Made by a program: the position numbers and the translations under genes. A stretch of DNA of 64,000 bases, taken from NCBI RefSeq assembly GCF_902832885.1, contig NZ_CADFDK010000009.1, forward strand, positions 186,001 through 250,000. The letters are read 5' to 3'. Of this stretch, positions 34,038 to 41,927 are shown in pieces (positions within the stretch are counted from its first letter, which is position 1; each line of letters begins with the position of its first letter). The notes beneath the pieces were generated by a model. The model was not told the DNA's origin and made no database searches. It saw only the letters and a list, made by a program, of their open reading frames with translations. This DNA comes from Burkholderia seminalis DSM 23518 (GTDB lineage: Bacteria > Pseudomonadota > Gammaproteobacteria > Burkholderiales > Burkholderiaceae).

Positions 34038-35300
34038 TCACGGACGGGCGGCCGCCGCGAGCGCGTCGAACACGTCCGCTTCCGGAAGCCGCAGCCACGA
34101 TTCCGGGCCCGCGTCGATTTCCTCGACCGTCAGCAGGCACGCATCGAGTTCGCGACGCAACCGGTCGTGATCGACCGACTGCCCGATGAACACGATTTCC
34201 TGCCGACAATCCCCTGCCGGCTCCTCCCATTTCTTCAGCACGCCGTCGCGGCGATAGTCGTCGAGCGGCCAGTCCGACTGCGGGATGAATCGCCACCATC
34301 GCCCGACGTAACCCCACTGGAACGCGCCGCCCGTCTGCACCAGCATGGCGATGTCGGTATACCGGTGCGCAGCCCAGACATAACCCTTGCAGCGCAGCAG
34401 CCGGCCGTTGTCCCACGGACGACGCAGCCAGGCGAGCAGGCGCGCCGGATGAAACGGCGCACGTTCGCGATAGGTCCACGACGCGATCCCGTACGCATCC
34501 GATTCCGACGGACGTTCGTCGATCTGCATGCGCTGCATCCATCCCGGCGATTCGACCAGCGCCGGCAGATCGAAGCGCCGGGTATCCAGCACGTCCGACG
34601 GATCGACCTTGCCGTGCTGCATCGGCAGGATTCGCGCAGCCGGATTCAGCGACGCAAGCATCGCGCGCAGCCGGTCGAAACCCGCATGGCCGATCCGGTC
34701 GAGACGGCTCACGAGGATCACGTTCGCGTATTCGACTTGCTCGAGCAGCAGGTCCGACAGCTTGCGCGGCGGGCCGGAATGGCCGTCGTTCGCGAGCGCC
34801 GCGTCGTGCGCGACCGGTTCGGCCGACGCGATCATGTCCTCGAACGTCTCGCCGTCGACCACCGTGACGAGCGTGTCCAGCCGTGCCAGCTCGCTCAGGC
34901 TGAAACCGTCCCGATCGAGAAACGCAAACGTCTCCGCGACCGGCATCGGCTCCGAGATGCCGGTCGATTCGATCAGCAGATAATCGAAGCGGCGCTGCCG
35001 CGCGAGCGTGCTGATCTGCTCGAGCAGGTCGGCGCGCAGCGTGCAGCAGATGCAGCCGTTGCTCATCTCGACCAGTTCGTCCTCGCCTCGATGCAGCTCG
35101 ACGTTGCGCCGCACGTCGTCGGCGTCGATGTTCACTTCGCTCATGTCGTTGACGATCACGGCGACCTTCAGTCCTGCGCGATTGCGCAGGATGTGGTTCA
35201 GCAACGTCGTTTTCCCGGCGCCGAGGAAGCCGGACAGCACGGTGACCGGAATCCTCGGGCCGGGGGCGGCCGGCGCGCCTGGCGTCCCCGGCGTCGTCAT
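34038..35300 (-). CDS. CobW/P47K-family GTPase, nitrile hydratase activator
   Basis: A 420-residue G3E GTPase. It shows Walker A in [18 protein letters not shown], the metal-chaperone motif NGCICCTLR (CxCC), and a COG0523 C-terminal domain. Proteins of this type encoded beside Fe-type nitrile hydratases (P47K) are required for active enzyme, probably by delivering iron or assisting post-translational oxidation of the site. The ATG at 35300 overlaps the beta-subunit stop by 4 bp (ATGA), so the two are translationally coupled. It is the last gene of the leftward arm of the nitrile cluster. Confidence 0.93.
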
Positions 35301-35950
35301 GCGCTTGGCCCGGACGCGCGATCCAGGTAGCCTTCGAACAGGTCGACCACGACGTAGCCGTCGTCGGCGGCGTCGCCCCACAGATCCTTCACGCGGAACT
35401 CGACATGGTAGGTCGGCTGATGCGCGGCGCCGGTGTCGCCGTGGCCGATCGCGTCCGGGAAGGGCCACGATTCGGTCGTCCGGTGCAGCACGACGCCTTC
35501 CTTGCCGCGAACGTAGCCCGGCGCGCGGATGTGTCCGCTGACGTATTCGTCGCGAACGACGACACGCTCGCCGACCTCGAACCGCGTCGAGTCGGGCGGA
35601 GCCGCGCGGCCGCCGGATGTCGGCGGGTTCGCGAGCCGGAAATGCGAACCGAGCGCGCGGTCGAGTTCATCCTGCGTGAGCACGCCGGTTTCGACGAGCA
35701 ATGTCGCCGTCGCGATCACGTAGCGCTCGTAGTAGCGCGTGCCGACATGCTGGCGTACATCGATGCGTTCGACCGCGTGACGTACCTCGTCGACGCTGAA
35801 TTTTTTCAGTTGGTCCACGCCGACGAACATCAGGCTGTACGCGAGATGTTCCCAGTCTTCCTTGAAGACCGGCTTGTAGCCGAGACTGTTGATCGTATGC
35901 GGCACCGGGCCGAAACCCTGGAAGCCGCCGAGGTCGTGAAAGCCGTCCAT
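35297..35950 (-). CDS. nthB: Nitrile hydratase beta subunit
   Basis: A 217-residue beta subunit starting [16 protein letters not shown], the classical N-terminus. The C-terminal SH3-like part contains [31 protein letters not shown] and [14 protein letters not shown]. It pairs with the alpha subunit 44 bp upstream to hydrate nitriles to amides and carries the conserved arginines (for example [14 protein letters not shown]) that hydrogen-bond to the alpha-subunit metal site. It overlaps the CobW gene by 4 bp. Confidence 0.95.
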
Positions 35951-35994
35951 ATGTGATCTCCGAGATGAAGGACGAAAGCGAAACGGGGGGCGAG

Positions 35995-40741: not shown

Positions 40742-40885
40742 CATGCCCGGCGCGGTAGCGCGCGGCCGCCGCGCCGCGTGCCGGTTCGACCGGCAACGCG
40801 GCGTGCGCGGTCATCGATTGGACAAGGCGCTTTTGAACGGGCACGCTATCGGCTGCGTGTTTGCCAACCCCTGTAGGGCACGATC

Positions 40886-41927
40886 ATGACGATGCGTCCT
40901 CTCCCGCGCGCCGCAAGCGGCGACGCGCCCGGTCCGGCGTCCGGCAGCCCGCTGGACGAACGGACGAACGCGGCCATCGAGGTGCCGATCGACGGCTCGG
41001 TCAGCCAGCGTATCGAATTCTGGCGCGAGACGATTCTGCGCCTGTTCGCGGACGTGCAGATCGCCGCCGTGCAGAAAGCCGATTTCTTCGGCCGGGTGCG
41101 GCAGCGCAAGTGCGAAAAGATGCGAATCTCGGAAATCCACGCGAGCGAGCAGGCCGTGATCCGGCGTTATCGCCAGGCGCGCAGCGAGTACGAGGACAAG
41201 TATTTCGGGGTCTTGATGCTCGAGGGTAGCCAGTCGGTCGAGCAGGACGGCAAGATCGTCACGCTGCACCCCGGGGATTTCGCGATCTACGACGCGACAC
41301 GGCCTCACCACCTGCAGTTCGGCCAGTCGTGGCGCGAGATCGTCGTCAGCATTCCCCGCGCGACCCTGAACCAGCTCGTCGTCGGGATGGAGCACCGCAC
41401 GGCGTGCCCGACGCAAACCGGGGACGGCGTCGGCAGCGTCATGCGTGCGTTTCTCGAGCAGATGTCGTCGCAGATCCGCAGCGTGACCGAGGACGAGATG
41501 CGGCAGTTGTCGGATACCGCGATCTCGCTGATCGCGATGACGCTGGGGGGGCATGCAGCGCAACGACCTCGCGCAGTCGAGGATGAAGGCGTTGACGCTG
41601 ACGCGCGTGAAGCGGCATGTGCTCGAGCACCTGCACGACCCGGAGCTGAACCCGATGCTGATCGAGCAGTCGATCGGGATTTCGTCGCGGTACATCAACA
41701 AGCTGTTCGAGGCCGAGGAGGCGTCGCTGATGCGTTACGTGTGGAACCTGCGGCTCGAACGGTGCGCGCAGGATCTCGCGAATCCGCAATGCGCGGCGCT
41801 GCGCGTGTCCGACGTCGCATTGCGCTGGGGATTCAACGACATGTCGCATTTCAGCCGCGTGTTTCGCGAGCGGTTCGCGATGTCGCCGCGGGCGTGGCGC
41901 GAGCAGAGCGGCAAGCCGCGCGCGTAA
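40886..41927 (+). pseudogene. AraC-family regulator of the aldoxime/nitrile genes, frameshifted at a G7 tract
   Basis: Residues from ATG 40886 form an AraC ligand-binding-like domain (SQRIEFWRETILRLFADVQI, VEQDGKIVTLHPGDFAIYDATRPHHLQFG), ending ...ISLIAMTLGG. Just after, at the run of seven G (41545-41551), the homologous sequence continues one base later with MQRNDLAQSRMKALTLTRVKR and a standard two-HTH domain (IGISSRYINKLFEAEEASLMRYV, VSDVALRWGFNDMSHFSRVF). Removing one G would give an intact protein of about 346 residues. As written, the DNA-binding half is out of frame. This may be a sequencing error, a real mutation or phase variation. AraC proteins activate nitrile/aldoxime operons in other bacteria. 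Confidence 0.82.

Follow-up and report, generated by a model that had tools for sequence, protein, structure and literature searches.

Gene content of the locus

The stretch analyzed here (the window) is 64,000 nucleotides of Burkholderia seminalis DSM 23518 (contig NZ_CADFDK010000009.1, positions 186,001 to 250,000). It contains a compact seven-gene locus, at window positions 34038 to 41927, for the breakdown of aldoximes via nitriles and amides. All genes were placed by translation and profile searches (Table 1), and they form two arms that point away from each other: one with nitrile hydratase and a putative CobW-type activator, the other with an outer-membrane channel-like protein, an aldoxime dehydratase, an amidase, and an AraC-family regulator. 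A sequence-only reading had proposed these placements and a complete aldoxime-nitrile-amide pathway, and every gene lies where it was claimed. The Burkholderia cluster is a rearranged version of a known cluster; what is new here lies in the 514 bp that separate the arms, where two matching conserved promoter-like elements face one arm each.

The dehydratase aligns without gaps to two solved structures, 3w08 and 3a15, and a script check finds R178, S219, H299, and H320 in place. Script checks also find K96, S171, and S195 of the amidase, the Ser-cisSer-Lys triad of a protein that matches the amidase signature profile, and a CSLCSC motif beginning at C104 of the nitrile hydratase alpha subunit. 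The sequence-only reading had named the catalytic residues of all three enzymes, and the scripts confirm them; they attest family membership, and we do not count their numbering as a sign of novelty.

The best solved relative of the alpha subunit, 2ahj, we take to be the Fe nitrile hydratase of Rhodococcus N-771. Serine versus threonine in the metal motif distinguishes Fe-type from Co-type nitrile hydratases, and a Co-type-like relative in another locus (L006) reads CTLCSC at this site. Alpha and beta subunits, the CSLCSC site, and an adjoining COG0523 activator are all present; motif and family profiles thus support the earlier assignment to the Fe type, and the metal is probably iron. The activator itself has a GAGKT P-loop, a CICC sequence (CXCC motif) at residue 83, and cobW GTPase domains, and it is linked to nitrile hydratase. 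No NCBIfam model scores above its cut-off for this protein, the best match, ZigA, falling below its own.

These assignments predict the enzyme activities and the outer-membrane transport. The outer-membrane channel would admit the substrate, the haem dehydratase would convert aldoxime to nitrile, the CobW GTPase would help to metallate the Fe nitrile hydratase, which would turn the nitrile into an amide, and the amidase would release acid and ammonia from this amide. The substrates are most likely aliphatic and arylalkyl aldoximes of plant origin. An alternative ATG for the outer-membrane protein gene lies at 37112. An Rfam search of 33800 to 42100 and terminator scans gave nothing useful.

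Table 1. Coordinates and supporting evidence for the features of the locus in the window
Feature	Position	Strand	Evidence
Inserted unit, whole two-armed cluster	33941..41988	.	blastn against seven empty sites
CobW/COG0523 GTPase, putative Fe-nitrile hydratase activator (P47K/Nha3 type)	34038..35300	-	Pfam cobW and CobW_C (longer open reading frame)
Nitrile hydratase beta subunit	35297..35950	-	NCBIfam equivalog TIGR03888 above cut-off; NHase_beta_N and _C
Nitrile hydratase alpha subunit, VCSLCSC (Fe-type) metal site C104-C109	35998..36594	-	NCBIfam equivalog TIGR01323 above cut-off; 2ahj best solved structure
Conserved promoter-like element facing the nitrile hydratase arm	36690..36743	-	Second-best site in 64 kb for the other element's matrix
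Conserved promoter-like element facing the dehydratase arm	36898..36951	+	Kept in 12 divergent and 3 same-direction loci
Outer-membrane channel-like protein (Phenol_MetA_deg family), putative substrate uptake	37109..38005	+	PF13557, 120.9 bits (cut-off 22)
Haem aldoxime dehydratase, aliphatic type	38101..39159	+	Aliphatic OxdA equivalog NF050090, 682 bits (cut-off 600); 3w08 and 3a15; catalytic residues
Amidase-signature amidase, Lys96-Ser171-Ser195	39215..40741	+	3a1k/3a1i best structures; NCBIfam subfamily NF005565 above cut-off
AraC-family regulator, ligand-binding part (AraC_binding_2)	40886..41551	+	Pfam; frame break at G run at the part's end
AraC-family regulator, helix-turn-helix (HTH) part, different frame	41553..41927	+	HTH_18, 67.3 bits

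Paired elements between the arms

A dehydratase match at E 1e-60 or better occurs in 16 of 398 family genomes. Twelve have the divergent layout (11 Burkholderia, 1 Paraburkholderia), three have their genes in one direction, and one (G098) is a 51% relative with no alpha-subunit match listed, which was left out of the 15 family dehydratases. The same 12 divergent loci were used for the control-region study, and several occur both in this collection and in the species-genome collection described below.

Across the divergent loci, the gap between the alpha subunit and the outer-membrane gene measures 418 to 552 bases. When aligned, it shows two conserved blocks with variable sequence between them, and the blocks are alike when each is turned toward its own arm. 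Local alignment of the facing elements outscores 500 of 500 shuffles in all 12 loci, with scores of 32 to 63. The window pair scores 42, and the best of 6330 other 100-bp segments in the 64 kb scores 32. Further, we trained a 54-base matrix only on the 12 dehydratase-side blocks and used it to scan the window and every divergent locus. Over the whole stretch it ranks the nitrile hydratase-side block second, in the gap and on the strand facing nitrile hydratase, in 12 of 12 loci (scores of -3.3 to 20.4, the next best site reaching -13.5 to -22.8); in the window the scores run 100.1, 4.3, and then -13.5. Similarly, the reciprocal matrix, applied to the window alone, ranks the other block second (95.6, 6.2, and then -20.5). 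The two elements have 27 of 54 columns in common, counting columns with a majority letter in at least 10 of the 12 loci on each side. The two copies in L005 can be aligned for about 86 bases, past the core, suggesting inverted duplication rather than convergence.

Because the same conserved element faces each arm, the arms are probably switched on together, not separately. The sequence-only reading had suggested two arms that can be expressed independently, and here the elements point the other way, to co-induction by one regulator. We consider it distinctly unlikely that the dehydratase arm answers to the AraC regulator and the nitrile hydratase arm to nitrile, amide, iron, or other such signals. 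The arms do form separate transcription units, being on opposite strands, and in the window the elements stand at different distances from the start codons (about 157 and 95 bases, by coordinates). However, independent control sits poorly with an element common to both arms, and no other regulator was recognized in the inserted unit, in which not every small open reading frame (ORF) was profiled. A second element that is a functionless, passive leftover of an inverted duplication is highly improbable: the long alignment in L005 speaks for it, but the nitrile hydratase-side block stays conserved across the 12 divergent loci amid a gap of variable length and sequence.

The elements might instead be sigma-factor core promoters or sites of a global regulator, and not sites of the cluster's AraC regulator, an explanation that we regard as unlikely. 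Binding by the AraC regulator is a prediction, and within the 27 shared columns the stretch TTTT..CTT..TA..CT might be a -10 region. Against this, a strict dehydratase-side pattern matches 6 of 398 family genomes, once each and always beside this cluster. This count is a lower bound, since the pattern, being overly strict, failed to find the window's own element and several known copies. In addition, a 22-base core finds one site in its own genome at up to 3 mismatches, namely itself.

Elements and the AraC-family regulator

For a wider comparison we used 80 loci, the best 80 of 87 dehydratase relatives from a species-genome scan, with neighbors mapped by tblastn; L001, from the window's own genome, is excluded from these tallies, and L098 to L101 were scanned separately with the dehydratase-side matrix. 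Eleven loci score above 5 with this matrix, and all 11 have a regulator whose N-terminal part is at least 64% identical to that of the window. The remaining 69 do not exceed 1.7. Since seven of the 11 went into building the matrix, the independent tally is 4 of 4 against 0 of 69. The one-direction loci L006, L008, and L009 each have a single element upstream of the outer-membrane gene, and L010, in which the dehydratase comes first, has a single element upstream of the dehydratase.

In the window the regulator occupies two frames, with the break at a G run (41540 to 41560). The AraC regulator proposed earlier is therefore present in both its domains and not as one open frame. Its AraC_binding_2 part and its HTH part each still match their Pfam families, and scored apart against the FeaR equivalog the pieces reach 72 and 105 bits vs a whole-protein cut-off of 199. 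The two domains that mark an AraC/XylS-type protein share one frame, in a single protein, in 14 of 14 close relatives tested, a set to which the L010 regulator, on the other strand, does not belong. The break may stem from a sequencing error, from a recent loss, or from a switching tract, which look the same in the assembly alone, so induction may be lost in the sequenced isolate or the base calls may be wrong. We lean slightly toward a sequencing or assembly error, the isolate being inducible like its relatives. The position of the break in a G run, the intact frames of the relatives, and the surviving Pfam matches all fit such an error, but a real recent loss or a switching tract would give the same picture.

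Distribution of the divergent layout

In 65 of the 80 loci the alpha subunit and the dehydratase share a strand; in 10 the subunit lies upstream on the opposite strand, and in 5 it was not found in the examined stretch. The 10 opposite-strand loci comprise 7 Burkholderiaceae with the window's layout, 2 Gordonia (L063 and L043), and 1 Sphingobium (L070), the last three with gene orders unlike the Burkholderia form. Within the genus, 13 of 65 genomes (the window's own included) have a dehydratase match at E 1e-30 or better. Twelve of these are close (87 to 100%), G050 being left out at 33% identity. In 11 of the 12 a Fe-type alpha subunit lies on the opposite strand about 1.4 to 1.5 kb away, and the twelfth has a Co-type-like nitrile hydratase in the same direction as the dehydratase. 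The divergent layout is thus the usual one in Burkholderia where the dehydratase occurs. Synteny bears out the sequence-only reading in that the layout is unlike the Pseudomonas loci examined; the layout is not the rarity it was taken for, with the alpha subunit on the opposite strand in 10 of 80 loci and in 11 of 12 Burkholderia genomes with a close dehydratase.

In a tree of dehydratase plus amidase from 31 chosen loci, the 12 divergent loci form one fork (100/99), and every one of 200 bootstrap trees sets them apart from the 4 same-direction Burkholderiaceae. The Sphingobium divergent locus falls elsewhere, on a long branch. Within the divergent group L005 branches first, and the other 11 group together (88/81, unstarred).

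A homologue of the outer-membrane protein (100 bits or more) occurs in 55 of the 80 loci, and we therefore rejected this protein as unique to the Burkholderia cluster. Its gene lies between dehydratase and amidase in 38 loci, before the dehydratase in 14 (13 on the dehydratase strand, 1 on the other), and after it in 3. First in the arm, as had been noted, is thus a less usual position (14 of 80); the protein itself is no distinguishing feature.

Two observations on nitrile hydratases concern other loci. Among 75 loci with a beta match, 7 (L006 at 11298-13478, L009, L012, L022, L030, L041, and L068) have the beta subunit of their Co-type-like enzyme split into N-half and C-half ORFs, a tally that covers loci with beta on the dehydratase strand; an eighth split, in L074, may be a frame defect. 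In L006 the split ORFs are followed by a small beta-N-like protein and then by a nickel/cobalt-type transporter. Such a split resembles thiocyanate hydrolase. Separately, G272:C75:43607-44164 encodes a 70% relative of the Fe-type alpha subunit in a family genome with no dehydratase at E 1e-60 or better.

Insertion site and origin

A LysE-type transporter and a histidine kinase flank 4 of the 12 divergent loci (window, L098, L099, and L011); the other 8 show no match above 40% identity to these neighbors in the examined stretches. The transporter occurs in 54 of 65 genus genomes, with no match in the remaining 11. In 48 of the 54 the site is empty, the transporter lying 1.52 to 1.93 kb from a response regulator, with room for the kinase alone. 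In 4, the window included, it is filled, and the distance is 9.58 to 9.65 kb. G052 and G025 have the neighbors in the other orientation and were counted as neither. Seven genomes (G002, G006, G023, G031, G033, G046, and G051) have the divergent cluster yet are among the 48 empty sites, indicating that the cluster sits elsewhere in them.

Blastn of 33200 to 42600 against seven empty sites places the boundaries of the insert: in all seven the left match ends at 33935 to 33945 and the right match starts at 41988 to 41992, the latter being a short, detached piece in L109. It therefore appears that the two arms travelled together with the regulator, as a unit of about 8.05 kb. Carriage by a mobile element is not supported, no integrase being recognized among the cluster genes. 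The longest exact repeats at the junctions are 8 bases direct and 8 inverted, and 200 random stretch pairs average 7.4 direct. Other transfer routes are possible.

In a tree of the nitrile hydratase-CobW cassette (21 rows), the divergent loci group with Pandoraea (91/88, unstarred), where the cassette is flanked by the amidase and regulator genes. That slot is taken by a Co-type-like enzyme in L006 and L009, together with the nickel/cobalt-type transporter in L006. Most simply, the ancestor had a cassette slot and the divergent group underwent a single relocation, though the change may have gone the other way.

Upstream of the locus, three PixA/inclusion-body-family genes lie at 29884 to 32135, between an SDR gene and an AraC gene. 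In L098 and L099, matches to these two flanking genes are about 230 to 240 bases apart.

Proposed control and rearrangement

We consider it probable that the locus encodes the full pathway, that its layout arose once, and that one AraC/FeaR-like activator co-induces both arms through the paired predicted operators. The nitrile hydratase-CobW cassette would have come to lie upstream of the outer-membrane gene, pointing away from it, on a single occasion, and would there have gained a reversed copy of the dehydratase arm's promoter-operator. The activator, whose gene closes the dehydratase arm, would bind each copy and so induce both arms together. Here the function of the elements as promoters, their binding by the cluster's regulator, the duplication, and the direction of the rearrangement are all inferred. 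For the fuller history, in which a one-direction operon was split by the cassette move, an inverted promoter-operator copy made this move tolerable by keeping both arms under one AraC activator, and the two-armed unit then spread as a block to different sites in Burkholderia genomes, we judge the chances to be even.

Several observations weigh against these proposals. On pairing, L099 scores 32 vs a best shuffle of 31, a thin margin, and the pairs of L099 and L011 (both 32) only equal the best score from real sequence in the window. The facing site of L003 (-3.3) scores below an off-target site in L054 (1.7), the 22-base core pattern misses the facing element even at 3 mismatches, and no consensus sigma-70 promoter was found in the gap. 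On the regulator, the four independent element carriers are all Burkholderiaceae, so the co-occurrence of element and regulator may reflect shared descent. Loci with a regulator at 48 to 53% identity (L030, L041, and L068) have no clear element, and no high-scoring element precedes the regulator gene. On origin, the direction of rearrangement is suggested by the outgroup layout, and the cassette's grouping with Pandoraea is unstarred.

The Pandoraea one-direction form, the 12 divergent loci, and the empty sites together offer a traceable operon rearrangement with apparent duplication of a control element. The 54-base element is a candidate operator for an AraC-type regulator of aldoxime breakdown, and both its inducer and the co-regulation are directly testable. 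The pathway is one for plant metabolites in a genus of soil and plant bacteria, and its enzymes are of biocatalytic interest.

Comparison with known systems

The Pseudomonas chlororaphis-type cluster has the same enzymes (OxdA, amidase, and Fe nitrile hydratase), a P47K activator, and a homologous outer-membrane protein. In Pseudomonas strain 14D6 (L013) the order is dehydratase, outer-membrane protein, amidase, alpha, beta, and CobW. Unlike in Burkholderia, the enzyme genes run in one direction, the outer-membrane gene is second rather than first, and the AraC-type gene is upstream and divergent, with only its HTH part matched (31%) by the Burkholderia regulator. The Rhodococcus loci (L029 and L079) likewise contain dehydratase, amidase, alpha, beta, and CobW, with an Fe-like nitrile hydratase and its activator, but their enzyme genes run in one direction, and no outer-membrane homologue was found in them. 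Aldoxime-nitrile clusters of this type are reported from Rhodococcus N-771 and A-4.

Clustering of the two enzymes in Burkholderia is not new. A 2019 study (PMC6829993) reports nitrile hydratase (Bcen_4082-85) and oxd (Bcen_4078-81) in one genomic cluster of a Burkholderia sp. nov. formerly in B. cenocepacia, among proposed plant-adaptation genes. These eight consecutive locus tags are probably the same cluster as that of the window; the passages on Bcen_4078-85 describe neither a divergent layout nor a shared control element. Sections of a 2022 review (PMC8955678) list aldoxime clusters in Bacillus, Bradyrhizobium, Pseudomonas, and Rhodococcus, and its Table 3 has one Paraburkholderia dehydratase and no Burkholderia row. 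COG0523 nitrile hydratase activators are treated in passages of PMC2770081. Our full-text searches of open-access papers, a scope beyond which most subscription papers fall, turned up no description of the divergent layout or of the shared element.

A one-direction counterpart, Pandoraea terrae (L008), has the same genes, a regulator of the same family (74%), and the element upstream of its outer-membrane gene. It differs from the Burkholderia form in having no second element and in that the amidase is followed, on its own strand, by the nitrile hydratase and CobW genes.

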